This document shows positions 2,747-20,849 of a stretch of 24,141 nucleotides of DNA, piece after piece (position 1 is the first letter of the stretch; each line of letters starts with the position of its first letter). Both the position numbers and the translations under genes were made by a program. The notes beneath the pieces were generated by a model. That model was not told the origin of the DNA and ran no database searches. It worked only from the letters and a program-made list of their open reading frames with translations. This DNA is from a virus. Where the stretch lies: the IMG/VR virus record IMGVR_UViG_3300005527_000288, positions 1 through 24,141 of that record. One strand, given 5' to 3'.

Positions 2747-3079
2747 TTAGGGGCCGCACCAGCGATAGCCTTGGCCCACCACGGTTTCGATGACGCGGTG
2801 ATGGTCGCCCAGCTTGGCGCGAATCCGGGTAAGGCGGACCTTCATGGCCCCGATCGAACCGACTTCACTGGCGCGGTTAGCCAACGCCTCGGCACTGACG
2901 GCGCAAGGGTAAGCCGTGGCAAGACTGTGCAGGAGGTTGCATTCGCCAAGGGCCAGCGCAGTCTTGACGCCGTAAAACCGAACCTCTTGGGGTGTGATTA
3001 GCCAAGGCCCGCGCTCAACTGGTCGATCCGCCCGGATGTTAAACCCGCAACTGGGGCAAAACGCCGGGGTGTCGGTCAT
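2747..3079 (-). CDS. CxxC plus OmpR-type winged-helix DNA-binding protein
   Basis: This 110-aa protein starts with a CPSCG motif (C8, C11), a zinc-ribbon-like knuckle although no second pair is obvious (other cysteines are C47, C59 and C108). Residues 27-107 match the C-terminal effector domain of OmpR/PhoB regulators: LITPQEVRFYGVKTALALGE, then the helix-turn-helix with GAMKVRLTRIRAKLGDHHRV and the closing wing IETVVGQGYRW. There is no receiver domain. It is probably a phage transcription regulator in the lysis region; target and ligand are unknown. The start overlaps the holin-like gene (ATGA). Confidence 0.85.
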   Translation of the reverse strand: MTDTPAFCPSCGFNIRADRPVERGPWLITPQEVRFYGVKTALALGECNLLHSLATAYPCAVSAEALANRASEVGSIGAMKVRLTRIRAKLGDHHRVIETVVGQGYRWCGP

Positions 3080-10132: not shown

Positions 10133-10497
10133 TGGCGCACCTCAACCAGCGTCATGTTTTCGATTTGGTCCAGGTGCGTTGCCAGCCCGACAATTTCCAG
10201 CGGGGTGTCAAAGCGAACCTTGACCACCGTTCCGCCGGTTTCGTCGGTCCAGTCGGTAAAGTCGAAACTGTGCAAGCTACCTTCGGCCTCGGCGTAAAGT
10301 TCAATCACGGCCAGATAGACCGGATCAGTTCGCACGGCGGGCGGGAAGCTTACGTCATAGGTGCGCAGGGGGGTTGCCCAGCGGTTATTTCTAACCTCAT
10401 GCCCGCCGTCCGTTGTGACGATTTCAGTGCCCCAGCGTTCACGGCGAACCGCGCCTAGTTCGATCTGTTCGGGAAGGGTCGAGTTAATGTGCGCCAT
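10129..10497 (-). CDS. Distal tail protein, compact DUF2460 / GTA gp12-like
   Basis: This 122-aa protein matches the N-terminal part of DUF2460 (GTA gp12 type): ELGAVRRERWGTEIVTTDGGHEVRNNRWATPLRTYDVSF, then VIELYAEAEGSLHSFDFTDWTD. The end (VKVRFDTPLEIVGLATHLDQIENMTLVEVRQ) resembles the last strands of the same family. The family is usually about 200 residues, so the middle appears to be missing and this is a compact version. It should form the ring at the tail end that links tube to hub. It shares one base with the tape measure stop (TAATG), and its stop overlaps the GTG of the next gene. Confidence 0.85.
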   Translation of the reverse strand: MAHINSTLPEQIELGAVRRERWGTEIVTTDGGHEVRNNRWATPLRTYDVSFPPAVRTDPVYLAVIELYAEAEGSLHSFDFTDWTDETGGTVVKVRFDTPLEIVGLATHLDQIENMTLVEVRQ

Positions 10498-12692
10498 TAC
10501 GCATCCCTCATCGGATTAAGTTCGCGGCGATAGCGGCGGGCGGCTTGCGCGCCTGTTTCGCGGGCCTCACGGGCGTTTGTAATTCCGGGGAATACAAAGG
10601 TGGGGTTATGCGATTGCTGCCGCCCCATGCCCTTTAGTTCATGGTTGGGAATGACCTGCGACCCGCGCTTGAGGTTGACCAGTTCCGGCCCGCGCTCCCC
10701 GACGATAGCAAGGCCGCCAGGGGCAAAGTTAGTGCCCTCGGCAAAGCCCGGAATGCCCAAAGCCCCAGCCAGCGGCTTGATAATCGCTTGCTGAATTTGC
10801 AGCCGCAGCAGTTCCGAAAGAACCTGCCCGACAACATTCTTGGCAACATCGGCCAGTGACTTGAAGTTGACAATCGCGTCAACCAGCCCGTCCTCTAGCG
10901 CCTTCAGCCCGTCAACCTTGATCCCGGCGATCGCGTCATTCAGCGCCCCAGCGGATAGATTGATTTCGCGGGCATATGCCTCACCTGGCCCCATTGTGCC
11001 TTGACTGACTGCCGCTTGCCGCTGGCCTGCCGTGCGCTGGACCGCCTCTTTCTCAAGCTTGGCGTTCTGCCATGCTGCCGAAGCCGCAGCCTCTACCGCA
11101 AGAATGCGGTCTAGTTCGGCAATCCGTAGCCGGTCTTGCAGGGCCAAAATAGCAAGTTCAGCGTCCCGCCGATCTGCGCTGTTGTCAGCCAGTTCGGCGC
11201 GAAGCTGCGCGTCCTCAATCTGGATTTGCAGACTGCCGCGCGTAATCTCGAAAGACTTGTTTGCGAGGTCGCGACCGTATTCCTGTTCAACGTTCTTTTT
11301 TTGCTGGTCAACAAGTTCGGTCTTAGCATCAATCAGGATTTGCCGCCGCGTATCGGTCAAGCCTTCATCGAGCGCCGCGCTCTCCTTAAAGGAGGCGAGT
11401 TCAACGTCTAGCGCCGCAATCTTGGCGTCATACGCGTTCTTTATGTTGCCGGTGTATTCGGCTTCCGCGTCCAGTTGGCTTACGTAAAGATCGCCTAGTT
11501 CGGCATTGAACCGGGCCGCATTCTGCGCCGCCTCGCGCGCAATGTCAGCCGCCGACTTACCACCACCGCCACCGGATCGACCGCCACCACCACCGCCGCC
11601 GGATCGACCGCCACCACCACCGCCGCCAAATCCTTCGGCAAAACCAGCGCCCAGCGGCTTGCTCTTGCTGGGCATGATTTCCGCGATGGTTAGGCCCTTG
11701 CTGCGGAGCAATTCATCTGCCTGCTTTTCGCGCGACAGATTAGCGTTGCGGCGATAACCAGCGGCTTTCTTCTGGTCACCTGCGAACGGCGAAATTCCGA
11801 AAATAGCGGCGTTTACATCGCCCTGGATTTCCTGCCGCTTAAGGTTGAATTGCCTTAGCGCAGCAGCGGCGCGGCCAATGACATTAATCAGCGAGACAAA
11901 CGCATTCGCCAGCCCAAGGATCGCATCGGCATTATCAGCCACCACACCGGCAACACGGGCCTTCAGCACCGTATTGAGCGCGGCCAGTTTATCGGCGGTT
12001 TCGTCCGCGCGCTGGATTTGATCTTCAGAAAGAACCGCGCCCAGCTTGTGCGCCGCTGAACGCAGTTCGTTGACCGCCGCCGAACCGCCGGAAAGCAACG
12101 GTTCAAGCTTTTGCCCAGCCTTGCCGAACATATCAGTTAGGATCGCCGCGCGTTGCGCCGGGTTTTCAACGCCCTTTAGCGCGTCCGCAATCTTGGGGAT
12201 CGCGTCAGCCGCGTTCAGGACATTGCCGTTGGCATCTTTAACCGCGATGCCCAGCGAGTTGAAAGCCTCAACCTGCTTTTTGCTGCCGTTAGCCGCCTCG
12301 CCAATCGTGCGGGTTAGCTTGGCAAGGGCCTTGTCCATTTCCTCTTGGGAAAGACCGGCCTGCGTTGCGGCGTAGCGGTATTCTTGCAGCGCGTCCGTAG
12401 TTACGCCAAGCTGCTGCGCCGTCTCGCCAAGACTAGAGGCAAAATCGAGACTGCCCTGCACCGCGTTTTGCATGGCGTTTGCAAGAACGGCAAAGCCCGC
12501 TGCAACCGCCGCCGTGCCAATAGTCTTTAGGCCGATGCCGACCTTTTGACCGGCCTTATACATCCGGTCAGATTCGGTGTTAAAATCCTTACCGGCGCGC
12601 TTCATCCCCCGGCGGGCCTTATCAAGCCCCCGGTCAAATTCTGCGCTTTCAAGACCGAGCGAAACCAGCAACGAACCTAACACGGTTGCCAT
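10497..12692 (-). CDS. Tail tape measure protein
   Basis: This 731-aa protein sets tail length and helps DNA ejection. The start VLGSLLVSLGLESAEFDRGLDKARRGMKRAGKDF is typical of tape measures. It is followed by a hydrophobic segment (TIGTAAVAAGFAVLANAM, near 57-74), long alpha-helical stretches (LGVTTDALQEYRYAATQAGLSQEEMDKALAKL) and a C-terminal AEGTNFAPGGLAIVGERGPELV motif common in this family. A glycine-rich linker of about 25 residues near 352-377 splits the protein into two halves and is encoded by a 27-bp tandem repeat. At this size it implies a fairly short tail, about 100 nm by the usual 1.5 angstrom per residue rule. The ATG has an AAAGGA Shine-Dalgarno sequence. Confidence 0.93.
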   Translation of the reverse strand: MATVLGSLLVSLGLESAEFDRGLDKARRGMKRAGKDFNTESDRMYKAGQKVGIGLKTIGTAAVAAGFAVLANAMQNAVQGSLDFASSLGETAQQLGVTTDALQEYRYAATQAGLSQEEMDKALAKLTRTIGEAANGSKKQVEAFNSLGIAVKDANGNVLNAADAIPKIADALKGVENPAQRAAILTDMFGKAGQKLEPLLSGGSAAVNELRSAAHKLGAVLSEDQIQRADETADKLAALNTVLKARVAGVVADNADAILGLANAFVSLINVIGRAAAALRQFNLKRQEIQGDVNAAIFGISPFAGDQKKAAGYRRNANLSREKQADELLRSKGLTIAEIMPSKSKPLGAGFAEGFGGGGGGGRSGGGGGGGRSGGGGGKSAADIAREAAQNAARFNAELGDLYVSQLDAEAEYTGNIKNAYDAKIAALDVELASFKESAALDEGLTDTRRQILIDAKTELVDQQKKNVEQEYGRDLANKSFEITRGSLQIQIEDAQLRAELADNSADRRDAELAILALQDRLRIAELDRILAVEAAASAAWQNAKLEKEAVQRTAGQRQAAVSQGTMGPGEAYAREINLSAGALNDAIAGIKVDGLKALEDGLVDAIVNFKSLADVAKNVVGQVLSELLRLQIQQAIIKPLAGALGIPGFAEGTNFAPGGLAIVGERGPELVNLKRGSQVIPNHELKGMGRQQSHNPTFVFPGITNAREARETGAQAARRYRRELNPMRDA
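11560..11627 (-). repeat. 27-bp tandem repeat coding a glycine-rich linker
   Basis: Two copies of a 27-bp unit (11574-11600 and 11601-11627) are identical apart from what can be seen at their edges, and a partial third copy precedes them (from 11560). On the coding strand each gives seven glycines followed by Arg-Ser. The array lies inside the tape measure gene and could change copy number by slippage without breaking the frame, since 27 is a multiple of three. Confidence 0.85.
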
Positions 12693-12693
12693 G

Positions 12694-12990
12694 CTATTTC
12701 CTTTCGATCTTGCGGATAGTCATCGGCGCGCCGCCGCTTTGATATGCCAGCAACGCGGCCAGCATTTCGCGCGGGGCTTGCGCTTTCTTCTTGGGGGAAA
12801 GGTAGTGCCGAAGGGGCTTCAGCTTACCGGATTGCGCAGCGGCAACGAATGCCGCCGTTTCCCATGCTAGCCGGGTTTGATCCTGGCTTTCGTTTTCCAG
12901 CCTTTTGCGAACGCCCTGCATCGCCATTTGGTAATGGCGGGGCGTTTGCTGCCAGAAGTCGTCAGGCGAAAACCCGGCCTGCACCCACAT
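12694..12990 (-). CDS. Tail assembly chaperone, downstream frame (lambda T-like, made by frameshift)
   Basis: The first ATG of this frame is at 12990 and gives 98 aa, but the coding pattern extends upstream without an ATG: the 17 codons before it read RADGGDPSDLTIDDFYV and lead directly into MWVQAGFSPDDFWQQTPRHYQ. 'L..ddfy.mw..aGfspddFW..TPr.y' is the signature of the phage chaperone family PF09550-like. There is no Shine-Dalgarno sequence before ATG 12990. The likely product is therefore the C-terminal part of a -1 frameshift fusion with the 13011-13340 protein. ATG 12990 is kept only as the conventional boundary; real coding in this frame begins near 13040. Confidence 0.85.
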   Translation of the reverse strand: MWVQAGFSPDDFWQQTPRHYQMAMQGVRKRLENESQDQTRLAWETAAFVAAAQSGKLKPLRHYLSPKKKAQAPREMLAALLAYQSGGAPMTIRKIERK

Positions 12991-13010
12991 GACGTAGAAG
13001 TCATCTATGG

Positions 13011-13340
13011 TTAGGTCGCTAGGGTCTCCGCCGTCTGCACGTTTCCCGGTTCAGCCTTGCCGCCGTAGCTGGTGAACAGGTCAATCAATGCGGTCGCCAA
13101 TGCCGCAGGGGCGCGGGCGACAATCGCCAAGGTGTGGTCCTCGGTAAAGTCGGGATGCTCCTGCGCGGCAAGGCATTTTACCAGCGTTGCCGAACGCGCC
13201 GGGGTTAACCCTTCGCCGTCAAAGGCAAGCAGGTTAATGCCGTGCTGTTCCGCCAAGGAAATCGAACGGAAGTTGAGGCGGAGAGTGATCGGCTCACCCT
13301 CCACCTCGAACGTTACCTTGGCATCAATAGGAGCGACCAT
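13011..13340 (-). CDS. Tail assembly chaperone, upstream frame (lambda gpG-like)
   Basis: This 109-aa protein resembles the GTA gp10-like chaperone family. It starts with a strand pair (AKVTFEVEGEPITLRLNFRSISLAEQHG) and continues as helices. In siphophages this gene encodes a chaperone that binds the tape measure before the tube assembles. A slippery heptamer GGGAAAC lies in the right register at 13047-13041, ten codons before the stop, and the -1 frame continues into the next reading frame. A fraction of ribosomes is therefore expected to make a fusion of about 215 aa. The start ATG shares one base with the tube-protein stop. Confidence 0.88.
   Translation of the reverse strand: MVAPIDAKVTFEVEGEPITLRLNFRSISLAEQHGINLLAFDGEGLTPARSATLVKCLAAQEHPDFTEDHTLAIVARAPAALATALIDLFTSYGGKAEPGNVQTAETLAT
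13041..13047 (-). promoter_or_regulatory. Probable -1 programmed ribosomal frameshift site (GGGAAAC)
   Basis: In the zero frame the minus-strand codons read CCG GGA AAC, which gives G GGA AAC, the X XXY YYZ form of a -1 slippery heptamer. It differs only in the last base from lambda's GGGAAAG in G/T. The -1 frame is closed by a TGA at 13053-13051 just upstream and is open from there to 12694, so the site sits where slippage must occur to join the two chaperone frames. No downstream stimulatory structure was identified. Confidence 0.85.
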
Positions 13341-13759
13341 TAGGCTTCAACCGAAGCGCCGGTAAAGCGAACCGTCAGCGTAGCGGTCATGCGGTCGTCA
13401 ATCGGAACGTTACGCTCCCAGCCCTTCACGATGCAGTCCCCGGTGATTTCCCAGCCGGTCGCGCCATCGGGCAGAACGATCTTATACGAACGAGTCACGC
13501 CGTCATTCAGCGCGGCCTGGATAAGCAGGTCAGTTGCGCCGCCAGCGACATAGTTAAATTCAAACGTGCCTTCGCCGTCCTCAATCAGCCCAGCGATATA
13601 TTCGCGGCGGCGATTGGGCGAAGCCATATGCGTTGCTTCAACGTCCGCGATCTGCGGGTTAGGCGGCGTTACCGAAAGAACTTCGTCCAGTTCGGTCAGG
13701 ACGCCGCCAGCGTTGTCCAGCCAAAATTCTGCGCCGTAGCCAATTCTTGCACTAGTCAT
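13340..13759 (-). CDS. Major tail tube protein
   Basis: This 139-aa protein is the likely subunit of the tail tube. The order YGAEFWLDNAGGVLTELDEVLSVTPPNP, then VEATHMASPNRRREYIAGLIEDGEGTFEFNY and the C-terminal GWERNVPIDDRMTATLTVRFTG is the classic tube-protein layout: a beta sandwich with the conserved '..d....v..h.sp...e.i.gl.d.g....f...' region. The ATG at 13759 has AGGA about 9 nt upstream and does not overlap the previous gene, in keeping with high expression. Position between DUF3168 and the assembly chaperones is the expected one. The stop overlaps the next ATG (TAATG). Confidence 0.92.
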   Translation of the reverse strand: MTSARIGYGAEFWLDNAGGVLTELDEVLSVTPPNPQIADVEATHMASPNRRREYIAGLIEDGEGTFEFNYVAGGATDLLIQAALNDGVTRSYKIVLPDGATGWEITGDCIVKGWERNVPIDDRMTATLTVRFTGASVEA

Positions 13760-15365: not shown

Positions 15366-15923
15366 CTAGAAAGCAAAGCTGCGATAGTTGGTAAGAAGGG
15401 CCTCAACCGCGTTAGGCATTGCGATTAGGGGCTTGTCGGTCGCTGCGGATCGGTTGTCATACCATTGACCAACCAGCAGCAGGATTGCTTGCTTGAACGG
15501 CGCGGGAACGGTTGTGTAACCCGCAACGAAGCGGATCACGACATTATTGACGCCCTCAGATACTTCCGGCCATGTGTAGTTAGTTGCCCTGACAACCCAT
15601 TGCGGGTCGCTGGCATCGTCCAGGCTATAGTTAACGCTTGAAACGGTCTGTTCGGCCCCGGCAGTGTCGATATAAGTCACATACGTTATCGCAGTAACCG
15701 GGCCTTTTGGCAGGACCATTGCATCGCTGAAGCTATCGTAAACGGCTTCCCAGGTCTGCGAGACAATCGCGCGCCCGGTATAGAGTTCAACGTGGCTGGT
15801 CGCGGCGGCAATTAGCCCATCAACCAACGCATCCTCATCGGTCCCGTCAATTCGGCAATGCGTTTTAGCCTCTGCCAGCGACACCGGATAACTTGCCGGG
15901 GCAGTAATCAGGCGAATGCTCAT
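15366..15923 (-). CDS. Head-tail connector protein (phiE125 gp8 / HK97 gp6-like)
   Basis: This 185-aa protein is a head-completion connector that sits under the portal and forms the neck. The N-terminus has the typical 'P.Y.PVSLAEAKTHCRIDGTDEDALVDGLIAAATSHVELYTGRAIVSQTWE' arrangement: a first helix pairing with a long second helix, then the strand segment. LPKGPVTAITYVTYID and VVIRFVAGYTTVPAPFKQAILLLVGQWYDNR further on are hallmark motifs of the phiE125 gp8 family. Length is normal. The ATG at 15923 overlaps the stop of the repeat protein (ATGA). The gene reappears in standard HK97-like order after a five-gene insertion behind the capsid gene. Confidence 0.92.
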   Translation of the reverse strand: MSIRLITAPASYPVSLAEAKTHCRIDGTDEDALVDGLIAAATSHVELYTGRAIVSQTWEAVYDSFSDAMVLPKGPVTAITYVTYIDTAGAEQTVSSVNYSLDDASDPQWVVRATNYTWPEVSEGVNNVVIRFVAGYTTVPAPFKQAILLLVGQWYDNRSAATDKPLIAMPNAVEALLTNYRSFAF

Positions 15924-17065
15924 CTAGCCCCCCTTGAAACGTTAGCGCGGCGGACGCTTGATCCCTGCCCCGGCCTTGTGCTTGTGACAGCGGCAAAGCG
16001 GGCCAGTGAAGTTGCATCCGGTCGGTTGCCGCCCCGGTTATCCGAATGCCTCGCGGTGCTGCGCGGGATCGGGACGCCGATGCTTGCCGCGTCTTGTCCG
16101 GCCTCAACGCCGGAAAGACCGCCCTGGATAAGAACAAGTCCGGCAAACCCGGCGGTGTCCTCTCCGTCCGTAGCGGCGAGACTTCCGGTTGCGGGCAAGA
16201 CGCCAGCAATTGAAGCCGCGTCATTTCCGGCCTCAACCGCATTCAACAAACCAGAAACAACCGGCATTCCGCCGCTAAGACTGGCGGTGTCCTGCCCGGA
16301 CTCGGTTGCGGACAGCCCGCCTTGAATTAAAACTAGGCCAGTAAAGCCCGCCGTGTCGGCATTATCATTTGCGGCTAGTGCGCCGGTTATCGGAACATTC
16401 CCGGCAAATGCGGCACTATCCGCGCCACTTTCCAAACTGGAAAGCGCACCGCTTACAAATACGGCACCGGCAATTGACGCGGTATCCGCCCCGGCCTCAG
16501 TAACCGAAAGCGCCCCCACAATCGGGACAAATCCAGAAAGACCGGCAACGTCCGCGCCGGTTTCATTTACAGCCAGAGAGCCTGTGACGGGCGGGCTTGC
16601 CCCCGAACCGACAAAACTGGCGGTGTCCGCGCCGGTTTCAGTTAGCGCAAACGCGCCTTGGACTAAAACGTCACCCGATAAGCTGGCGACATCGCCCGCC
16701 GTCTCACTTACCGCCAATCCGCCTTGGACTATCACAACGCCGACAATCGCGGCGGTATCGGCTCCAGTTTCAACGGCGGCTAGAGTGCCGTCGATCAATA
16801 CGGCACCGGCCAGCGATGCGGTATCCGCCCCGGCTTCTGTGGCGGTCAGCGCCCCGTCAATCAGGACAAGCCCGCTAAGGCTTGCGCCATCTGCGCCGGT
16901 TTCTGTTGCCGCAAGACTTCCGATTATTGCGGGATCGGCAACAATGCCCGCCAGGCTTGCGGTATCGCTTCCCGCCTCATTTGCCGCCAGAGTTCCGGTT
17001 GCCGTGGCAGGAGGAGTCGAGAGTTGCTGTGCCGCAGCCTGTAGCGGCTGAAACAGCCAACTCAT
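15920..17065 (-). CDS. Repeat protein: about fourteen 22-residue E-x-G-x-D-T-A units
   Basis: This 381-aa protein has a short 23-residue head, about fourteen tandem units over residues 24-335, and a basic 46-residue tail rich in Arg, Ser and Asn. A typical unit reads GALTATEAGADTASLAGAVL, with spacing of 20 to 25 residues. Gly, Leu, Glu, Gly and the Asp-Thr-Ala core are the conserved positions; two units have shortened cores (NDNADTAG and DGEDTAG). The units are diverged rather than identical at DNA level, so they are old and under protein-level selection. The periodic beta-strand/turn pattern suggests an extended fibre or solenoid. Function is unknown; its place next to the connector genes suggests a head- or neck-associated fibre. 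Confidence 0.88.
   Translation of the reverse strand: MSWLFQPLQAAAQQLSTPPATATGTLAANEAGSDTASLAGIVADPAIIGSLAATETGADGASLSGLVLIDGALTATEAGADTASLAGAVLIDGTLAAVETGADTAAIVGVVIVQGGLAVSETAGDVASLSGDVLVQGAFALTETGADTASFVGSGASPPVTGSLAVNETGADVAGLSGFVPIVGALSVTEAGADTASIAGAVFVSGALSSLESGADSAAFAGNVPITGALAANDNADTAGFTGLVLIQGGLSATESGQDTASLSGGMPVVSGLLNAVEAGNDAASIAGVLPATGSLAATDGEDTAGFAGLVLIQGGLSGVEAGQDAASIGVPIPRSTARHSDNRGGNRPDATSLARFAAVTSTRPGQGSSVRRANVSRGAR
16061..16996 (-). repeat. Tandem array of diverged ~66-bp coding repeats
   Basis: This is the DNA array that encodes the 22-residue units of the protein at 15920-17065. About fourteen units follow with a period close to 66 bp, each containing a recognisable GGNGCNGACACNGC-like core for Gly-Ala-Asp-Thr-Ala. 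Units differ at many third positions and by a few inserted or missing codons. Confidence 0.85.
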
Positions 17066-18862: not shown

Positions 18863-18886
18863 GGGCGGGAGATTGCTCCCCCGCCC
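18863..18886 (-). terminator. Strong hairpin after the capsid gene, no T tract
   Basis: On the minus strand GGGCGGGGG pairs with CTCCCGCCC (9 bp including one G-U pair) across a 6-nt AGCAAT loop, starting 7 nt after the capsid stop codon. The same pairing on the plus strand would contain an A-C mismatch, which favours a minus-strand RNA function. Only TATTCC follows, so it is a poor intrinsic terminator. It may stabilise or define the 3' end of a capsid mRNA. Confidence 0.5.
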
Positions 18887-18893
18887 GCATCCG

Positions 18894-20147
18894 TTAGGCC
18901 TGGATCAGGTGCTTTACAGCGCCGGTCTGGATCAGATCGCCGTCAAGGCGGACCACACCAGCAAGACCGATGTTCGGCCAGTAGTATTCACGGCGAACGC
19001 CGATCACCGGAGCGCCGACCTTGCGGACGTAATACTTGCTGAAGTCGCCAAACAGAACCGACTTGTTGCCGGTCGCGACGTTAGCCATCGCCTGGTTGAT
19101 GCTGTAGGGCTGGCCAAGCAGCGTCCCCGGAGCGCCGACGCGAACGTCACCCATCTGCCACAGGTAGTTGTTCTGACCGTCCTTCAGCTTGCGGATAACC
19201 GCCAGCGTCGAGTCGTTGAACATGAACCGGGCCTTGGGCGACATACGGTAAGCCGGATCGACCGAGTGCAGCAGGTCAATGAGTTCGTCCCCGGTGATCG
19301 CCGCAGCGCCAGCGGCAGTCTTGCCGAGCGCCGAAGCGGTAACAATGCCGTTCGGATCGCCGGTGCCGTCACCCGTAGTCAGTTCGGTATTGACGCGGCG
19401 GGCGAGACGTTCGCCAAGCAGTTCACCGATGAACGTTTCGACATTGACCGCCGAATCCTGAAGCAGTTCCATCGAAATCTGGACCCACTCAGTGTCATAG
19501 GCAAAGGCGTTCAGCGTCATCTTGGCAAAGGTAGCGTCAACGCCGCCGTCATCCGTCATGGCCCCGGCTTCGGTGTGCTGCGCAACCGCAACGGCGGTAT
19601 CGTCAACCTTCGGGAAGTCGATCGGGTTGCCCGATGCGGTATTCAGAACGGTGCAGATAGCCTCGTCATACATCGGCCCCCACATTTTCAGGGTCTTGTC
19701 GATGGTGGCGGCAAGATCGGTCGGGACGGTGAAGCCGCCCGCCGAGTTAGTGCCAGCGGTCTGCGCACGAAATTCCGAAACGCCAGCCTTGATAACCGCA
19801 CGGGCTTCCGGGCTGATTTCCTGAACGTCAAAGCCAGCGCGGGCCAGTTCAATAAAGGCTTCGCGGTATTCCGGCTTGGCAACTTCTTCAACGCCGCGAC
19901 CTTCGCCAGCGCCCATGTTGGGGCGGTTGGCAGCGCGCAGTTCTTCGGCGCGGGCTTCAGCCTGGGCCAGACGCTCTTCGCGGGCGATGTTCTTTTCCAC
20001 CTTGTCGAAGTCAGCCATGATAGCGTCATGGCGGGCTTCCAGTTCAGCCGCGCGGGCTTCGTCGGTGTTGGTCTTGATTTCGTCGAGGGCTTCACGGGCC
20101 TGGGTAACAAGGCGACCGCGCTGCTCCTGAAGGGCAGTCAGAGACAT
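18894..20147 (-). CDS. Major capsid protein (HK97 fold, with N-terminal delta domain)
   Basis: This 417-aa protein builds the icosahedral shell. Residues 1 to about 75 are a long, highly charged coiled coil (the delta or scaffold domain) that the upstream protease is expected to remove. After it come EYREAFIELARAG (93-105) and QTAGTNSAGGFTVPTDLAATI (129-149), the usual junction and N-arm region of HK97-type capsids. The body continues with DDTAVAVAQHTEAGAMTDD and the C-terminal YYVRKVGAPVIGVRREYYWPNIGLAGVVRLDG, both typical. The exact cleavage point cannot be seen. The ATG at 20147 has only a weak GGGA-type Shine-Dalgarno sequence, directly after the T tract of a terminator-like hairpin. A second strong hairpin follows the gene. 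Confidence 0.96.
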   Translation of the reverse strand: MSLTALQEQRGRLVTQAREALDEIKTNTDEARAAELEARHDAIMADFDKVEKNIAREERLAQAEARAEELRAANRPNMGAGEGRGVEEVAKPEYREAFIELARAGFDVQEISPEARAVIKAGVSEFRAQTAGTNSAGGFTVPTDLAATIDKTLKMWGPMYDEAICTVLNTASGNPIDFPKVDDTAVAVAQHTEAGAMTDDGGVDATFAKMTLNAFAYDTEWVQISMELLQDSAVNVETFIGELLGERLARRVNTELTTGDGTGDPNGIVTASALGKTAAGAAAITGDELIDLLHSVDPAYRMSPKARFMFNDSTLAVIRKLKDGQNNYLWQMGDVRVGAPGTLLGQPYSINQAMANVATGNKSVLFGDFSKYYVRKVGAPVIGVRREYYWPNIGLAGVVRLDGDLIQTGAVKHLIQA

Positions 20148-20161
20148 AGAGATATTCCCAT

Positions 20162-20187
20162 AAAAAACCCGCCGGGATGGCGGGCTT
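20162..20187 (-). terminator. Intrinsic terminator-like hairpin just before the capsid gene
   Basis: On the minus strand CCCGCC-ATCCC-GGCGGG forms a 6-bp all-GC stem with a 5-nt loop, extendable by one G-U and two A-U pairs, followed at once by six T residues. This is a classic rho-independent terminator shape. On the plus strand there is no good T tract, so it acts on transcripts running from the protease towards the capsid gene. The T tract ends only 14 nt before the capsid ATG, so any transcript that starts beyond the terminator would have almost no leader. Confidence 0.75.
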
Positions 20188-20240
20188 ACGTTGCGCGGAT
20201 CAAGCCTCGCGCTGGCCTCCGGTGGTCGCCGGGAAACTGT

Positions 20241-20849
20241 TTAGAGCTTGCGGAAACGCTGCTCGGAATCGGCTTTGCGCTTCAGATAACCCGCTTGGTC
20301 ATGCGCCTTGCGTTCGGCATCCTGGCGTTCTTCTTCGGCTTGGCGGCGCGCATTGTCGCGGTCGCGCAAAGCAATCTGTGTGGTCGGGTATGCGCCCCGG
20401 TTCACAATCGAAACGTCATACAGGACCACATCGGTAATCGTGCGAACGTCCGGCCCGTCTGCCGGGGTGTCCCAACGCTGGCCGGTCGCCTGAAAAGCGA
20501 AACTCATCTGGTCCAGCATCTTGCCGCGCATCTTGGGAACAATCCGCTGAACGTCAGGGTCAGACGGGTCCAGTTCGGCCCGAATGTGCAAGCCGTGGTC
20601 GTCCTCTTTCATGGTAAGGTTCCCGGCGGTCGAACGCGCCAGGGGAAGGCCCCCATGATTGATTAGAAATTCAACATCGTCGTTGCGGTCAAGCGCCGAA
20701 CGGAATGCACCGCGCGCCACGACTTCGGTGAAGACGCCGCCAATGTCGGTTGGCTGGTCAAAGACCGCCGCGTAACCTTCCACGACAATCTTGCCGTCAC
20801 CTTCAGCGCGAACTTCTACAGGAAGCCCGGCGCGCGTCTCACGTTCCAT
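20241..20849 (-). CDS. Prohead protease (HK97 family, peptidase S78)
   Basis: This maturation protease cleaves the N-terminal delta domain of the capsid protein and itself inside the prohead. With the start at 20849 it is 202 aa, normal for the family. Visible signatures are VVEGYAAVFDQPTD near residues 22-35, the catalytic-His motif FLINHG (H65), and the catalytic-Ser motif DQMSFAFQ (S116), followed by the usual LYDVSIVNRGAYPTT strand. The C-terminal 40 residues are a charged, probably coiled helix. The frame is open upstream to 21002, but that part overlaps the portal and reads as low-complexity basic sequence. ATG 20849 has a GGGGGAG Shine-Dalgarno sequence just upstream and gives the conserved N-terminus, so I chose it. 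Confidence 0.94.
   Translation of the reverse strand: MERETRAGLPVEVRAEGDGKIVVEGYAAVFDQPTDIGGVFTEVVARGAFRSALDRNDDVEFLINHGGLPLARSTAGNLTMKEDDHGLHIRAELDPSDPDVQRIVPKMRGKMLDQMSFAFQATGQRWDTPADGPDVRTITDVVLYDVSIVNRGAYPTTQIALRDRDNARRQAEEERQDAERKAHDQAGYLKRKADSEQRFRKL

Follow-up and report, generated by a model that had tools for sequence, protein, structure and literature searches.

A predicted lambda G/GT-like −1 frameshift at the tail assembly chaperone locus of an uncultured siphophage-type virus and its relatives

Introduction

The mechanism of the phage lambda tail-gene frameshift, the roles of its products and the wide use of the device are established (reviewed in PMC5009743), and its conservation in dsDNA phages is credited to Xu, Hendrix and Duda (2004) in PMC5009743 and PMC3483164. 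Lambda gpG and gpGT are connected by the slippery heptamer G_GGA_AAG. The heptamer GGGAAAC has been predicted at the tail chaperone frameshifts, ahead of the tape measure gene, of Burkholderia phage KL1 (PMC3483164) and Caulobacter phage Colossus (PMC3556154) and, as G_GGA_AAC, at the g-t frameshift of the haloarchaeal virus HCTV-1 (PMC5009743).

Here we analyzed a stretch of 24,141 bases from an uncultured virus record (hereafter the window), in which a first-pass annotation had proposed a −1 frameshift between two tail assembly chaperone (TAC) frames. As in lambda, the two overlapping ORFs, in the 0 and −1 frames, lie between the genes for the major tail protein and the tape measure protein, the heptamer is located shortly before the first ORF ends, and the extension appears to have no start of its own. 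The locus differs from lambda in that its heptamer ends in C and not in G, and from the known TACs in that its first protein has no family-level sequence match to any of them. The difference in the last base, to which the first-pass annotation drew attention, is real yet not new: the heptamer is identical to those of KL1 and Colossus, whose sites are likewise predictions, and HCTV-1 has the same heptamer in the same kind of gene pair, although its host and ribosome are archaeal. Given these earlier predictions, the site in the window belongs to a known kind; the frameshift layout was also kept in every relative examined, which makes the locus ordinary in kind. With respect to described protein families, the extension matches PHROG 19318 but stays under the cut-off of PF09550.

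Results and Discussion

The head and tail genes on the minus strand of the window form a module of siphophage type. The genes are arranged in the order terminase large subunit, portal-like gene, prohead protease, capsid, head-tail connector, HK97-gp10-like gene, tail completion, major tail protein, chaperone pair, tape measure, DUF2460, baseplate hub and NlpC/P60, the portal and capsid having been named by position and neighbours. The major tail (tube) protein gene (13340-13759, minus strand; Pfam Phage_TTP_12, E=5.4e-18; PHROG major tail protein, 7.7e-18) is directly upstream of the chaperone pair, and its stop codon and the first codon of the 0-frame ORF overlap. Directly downstream of the pair is the tape measure protein gene (10497-12692, minus strand; PHROG tail length tape measure, 7.6e-38; PhageMin_Tail, 1.3e-13). 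The pair thus sits between the two genes that are expected to flank a locus of the lambda G/GT type.

Three other features of the window were recorded along the way. A 381-aa ORF on the minus strand (15920-17065), for which no Pfam match was found, consists of degenerate repeats with units such as GALTATEAGADTASLAG, and its direct repeats are spaced by 66, 75 and 132 nt. In a 110-aa phage protein encoded at 2747-3079 on the minus strand, a CPSC motif is followed by a DNA-binding domain of the OmpR type (Trans_reg_C, 5e-7); the protein lacks a receiver domain. On the plus strand, a 597-aa open frame (18873-20666) runs antisense to the capsid and protease genes and is probably a by-product of codon usage.

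The first chaperone frame, G-like, is an ORF of 109 aa (13011-13340, minus strand), and the heptamer G_GGA_AAC (13041-13047, minus strand) falls within its last 14 codons. The 0 frame reads CCG GGA AAC GTG there, so that the heptamer is in the correct X_XXY_YYZ register, as had been claimed. A one-base slip of both tRNAs would place them on GGG AAA, and reading would go on with CGT GCA GAC in the −1 frame. The T-like extension in this frame comprises 115 codons plus the stop (12694-13041, minus strand), from CGT at 13041-13039 to TAG at 12696-12694. The predicted fusion is 215 aa long (100 + 17 + 98) with the junction ...EPGN-RADGG, in line with the first-pass annotation. That annotation also pointed to a TGA closing the −1 frame just upstream of the site; the TGA is indeed present at 13053-13051, after which the frame is open to the TAG, but it is incidental, because the −1 frame of the near relatives L003 and L090 is open at this place. 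The first start codon of the −1 frame is an ATG at 12988-12990 (minus strand), which encodes Met-18 of the extension inside its conserved first helix (residues 12-21). The conserved LTIDDFYVMW motif begins upstream of this ATG, and no Shine-Dalgarno (SD)-like sequence precedes the ATG, both in agreement with the earlier description.

GGGAAAC is the sole XXXYYYZ heptamer in the upstream gene, counting all registers. Across the 7079 codons of the minus-strand genes it occurs in register once, and in-register XXXYYYZ heptamers of any kind occur 10 times. Of the shuffles of the codon order of the upstream gene, 4.6% put an in-register XXXYYYZ among the final 14 codons, and 0.27% put one of the GGGAAAN, AAAAAAN or CCCAAAN form there. 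These window statistics alone are suggestive of a heptamer beyond chance; combined with the comparison of relatives described below, the case that the sequences make against chance is decisive.

For this comparison, viral contigs were queried with four proteins (the capsid, the terminase, the tail protein and the extension) and genome contigs with the capsid, and loci were taken from phage records as well. Scanning the genome contigs with the extension itself gave no matches, and the loci were obtained through the capsid, tail and terminase proteins. A profile search of the loci yielded 42 distinct extension homologues, which group into 36 clusters when an identity threshold of 80% is applied. 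Their sources are viral contigs, a single Sphingomonas MAG and two phage records; one of the 42, L002, repeats the sequence of the window itself on a different contig. In all 42, a −1 shift out of an overlapping upstream ORF, 80 codons or longer, gives access to the extension, and where an overlapping third-frame ORF exists, the −1 partner is present as well. The lengths of the predicted fusions are mostly 205-232 aa; a few are longer because starts were chosen automatically in long open frames, and two are shorter because the contig ends there.

In 39 of the 42 homologues the ORF overlap contains an XXXYYYZ heptamer in register, while the two control registers gave 9 and 3, and the remaining three, without a formal XXXYYYZ, have xAC_CCT at the same place. 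This register test ruled out a heptamer occurring by chance. The first-pass annotation had suggested looking for conservation of the heptamer itself, and here the answer is twofold: an in-register slippery heptamer is kept almost throughout, but the G_GGA_AAN form in 22 of the 42. Within the supported clade of the window, G_GGA_AAC is kept in all nine cluster representatives. Phage records from isolates fit this picture, with in-register GGGAAAG in the Paracoccus phages Pben1 and Psul1, CCCCCCG in Caulobacter phage Kronos and AAAAAAG in Shpa. Most of the loci that have a related major tail protein, but an extension undetected by the profile, show the same −1 layout (L067, L074, L079, L071, L083, L082, L158, L139, L138, L017, L192 and others); they carry GGGAAAC, GGGAAAA or AAAAAAC, and a few have no site in a simple scan.

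The same comparison bears on the possibility that the two frames are separately translated genes, the downstream one encoding a 98-aa protein that starts at ATG 12990 by its own initiation or by coupling to the stop codon upstream, with the heptamer there by chance. This ATG lies 20 nt past the upstream stop codon and is called by gene finders, and the GenBank annotation of Kronos, Pben1, Psul1 and Shpa splits each locus into two separate hypothetical genes. Starting at ATG 12990, however, would cut the conserved first helix of the extension, and none of the 42 homologues has an SD-like sequence at any −1-frame start before the conserved FWxxT motif; in 23 of them the extension frame contains no ATG, GTG or TTG before this motif at all. 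The extension therefore appears, from these sequences, to have no independent translation start, as in loci of the lambda type. Relatives that lack the heptamer and start the downstream gene separately had been named as the finding that would speak against a frameshift, and no such relative was found among the 42. Together with the conserved register of the heptamer, this leaves separate translation very improbable.

Alternatively, a single gene could have been split in this contig by a sequencing error or by a real frameshift mutation. The two frames are contiguous and their total length is similar in all relatives, as one would expect from a split gene, but the identical −1 layout recurs in 42 of 42 distinct homologues, from independent samples and with finished phage genomes included, and a 0-frame stop follows in every one of them. 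No in-frame fused homologue was found among the 42. The relatives' identical layout refutes an error or mutation, to which we give hardly any weight. We conclude from the comparative pattern that the two chaperone frames are almost certainly joined by programmed −1 ribosomal frameshifting as in lambda G/GT. One point that weighs against this reading comes from E. coli, where AAC in the A site of the A_AAA_AAN heptamer is weaker than AAG (PMC5009743).

The first-pass annotation had the coordinates, frames and peptide right, and missed two possible stimulatory elements. One is an SD-like AAGG (13055-13058, minus strand), which ends 7 nt upstream of the heptamer. An SD match of at least 4 nt just upstream of the site was found in 72% of the 36 cluster representatives, compared with 23% of the control intervals taken from these genes. 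The other element is a downstream stem, the 5' arm of which (GGCGGAGACCC, 13022-13032, minus strand) begins 8 nt past the heptamer and pairs with a 3' arm at 12965-12975 (minus strand; GGGTTTTCGCC). An 84-nt stretch of the window folds here with z = −2.54. In the window's clade this 11-bp stem begins 5-8 nt past the heptamer, and the five strongest stems of the family belong to five members of the clade, L002 (the window), L003, L090, L096 and L105. We counted the pairs by script, with slide and swap controls. In six clade members (these five and L091), 61 of 66 positions pair, whereas sliding one arm by 1-9 nt leaves no more than 40 paired, and three positions are altered on both arms. Judging from these six related sequences, there is moderate support for a covarying stem in the window's clade. 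Family-wide downstream RNA structure was not supported, the mean z after the site being −0.61 and that at a control offset −0.60; support was confined to the clade of the window.

The products were compared with known protein families and folds. The first protein (109 aa) matched no Pfam or PHROG family, and PDB searches with it returned nothing useful by sequence and nothing significant by fold. Its model, of moderate confidence (pLDDT 69), shows a beta hairpin and four helices. In BFVD this model has weak matches to small phage proteins (best E 8e-4), and several matches named tail assembly chaperone have E of 1.7e-3 and weaker, to be read with the moderate confidence of the query model. The extension matches phrog_19318 (E=5.7e-16, positions 3-97 of 105), as do all 34 of the 34 aligned relatives; the label of this family is unknown function, and its entry in the library used has no frameshift note. 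With Pfam Phage_TAC_6 (PF09550), the window's extension scores 20.8 bits, under the gathering cut-off of 23.4 bits, and matches with E no higher than 0.01 were obtained for 10 of the 34 aligned extensions, the best being 1.1e-5. The model of the extension is all-helical and confident (mean pLDDT 88). Its PDB sequence matches were designed repeat proteins, which were not counted as homologues. The tail assembly chaperone reading draws support from the gene order, the weak Phage_TAC_6 match and, more tentatively, the fold predicted for the first half of the fusion. The sequence evidence being weak, with the extension below the cut-off, the first protein without a family and the fold match modest, the assignment to the lambda-like group depends more on anatomy and position.

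From the observed anatomy and its conservation we infer the slippage, its rate and the function of its products in this phage as follows. Most ribosomes would complete the 109-aa first chaperone. On a fraction of them, the Gly-tRNA on GGA and the Asn-tRNA on AAC would slip one base back onto GGG AAA, probably aided by the stem-loop 8 nt past the heptamer and perhaps by the SD-like AAGG upstream, and these ribosomes would continue in the −1 frame to make the 215-aa fusion. On the lambda model, the short and abundant form would coat the tape measure protein, while the rarer fusion would recruit the major tail protein via its extension. For this phage and its relatives, the annotation of two unlinked hypothetical genes can be corrected to one frameshifted tail-chaperone locus, and PHROG 19318, at present of unknown function, can be named as a frameshift-encoded extension.

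Sorted by their sites, the 42 homologues comprise 22 with G_GGA_AAN (mostly AAC), 19 with xAC_CCT (L032, L044, L030, L026, L095, L194 and others) and one, Kronos, with C_CCC_CCG. In the xAC_CCT class the site is A_AAC_CCT in 16 of the 19; the exceptions to XXXYYYZ, which keep AC_CCT, are L095 with G_AAC_CCT and L026 and L194 with G_GAC_CCT. A gut phage record (MT835519, an unannotated human-gut relative) has G_GGC_CCT in register. Neither codon is the usual choice of the family: in the long ORFs from these loci, GGA makes up only 10% of the Gly codons and CCT only 16% of the Pro codons. With independent draws, CCT in 17 of 17 class representatives has p of about 4e-14 and GGA in 18 of 18 p of about 2e-18, values that serve as guides and not as tests, because these codons defined the classes and the rows are related. 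On the tree, about 6-7 class changes are needed, and well-supported branches force at least two, for example L173 within a GGGAAAC group.

These sites also bear on the idea that the slip is made by the polymerase and not by the ribosome. Some bacterial genes do use polymerase slippage on A runs, but the longest runs at the window site are only GGG and AAA, and AAACCCT and GGACCCT in relatives contain no long homopolymer, the conserved feature being the codon register. We regard transcriptional slippage as extremely unlikely.

Under ribosomal frameshifting, the family would alternate between two unlike slippery sites, G_GGA_AAN and the proline-codon xAC_CCT, at one orthologous position, a proposal that we hold to be somewhat better than even. 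At xAC_CCT sites, the Pro-tRNA would re-pair from CCU to CCC and the Asn-tRNA from AAC to AAA. Slippery heptamers usually have A or U as their second triplet, a rule that the xAC_CCT class strains. We found no phage precedent for AAACCCT as a frameshift site in the open-licence literature. The authors of PRFect report that all four bases occur at every heptamer position in actinobacteriophage data (PMC10274946). If the proposal is true, xAC_CCT represents a bacterial −1 site, with C_CCU at its centre, that has been little documented. The class is in any case a specific and testable candidate for a less canonical site of this sort, and within the family two slippery sites can be compared, as a natural experiment, at a single orthologous position.

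A separate observation concerns the near relative L003, which is identical to the window on both flanks. Between the flanks lies a block of ~550 bp that is identical to L004; it extends from about −50 to +500 around the GGGAAAC of L003 (position 1028) and covers the region from the frameshift site through the extension into the beginning of the tape measure gene. Either recombination has recently exchanged alleles here, or the assembly is chimeric.
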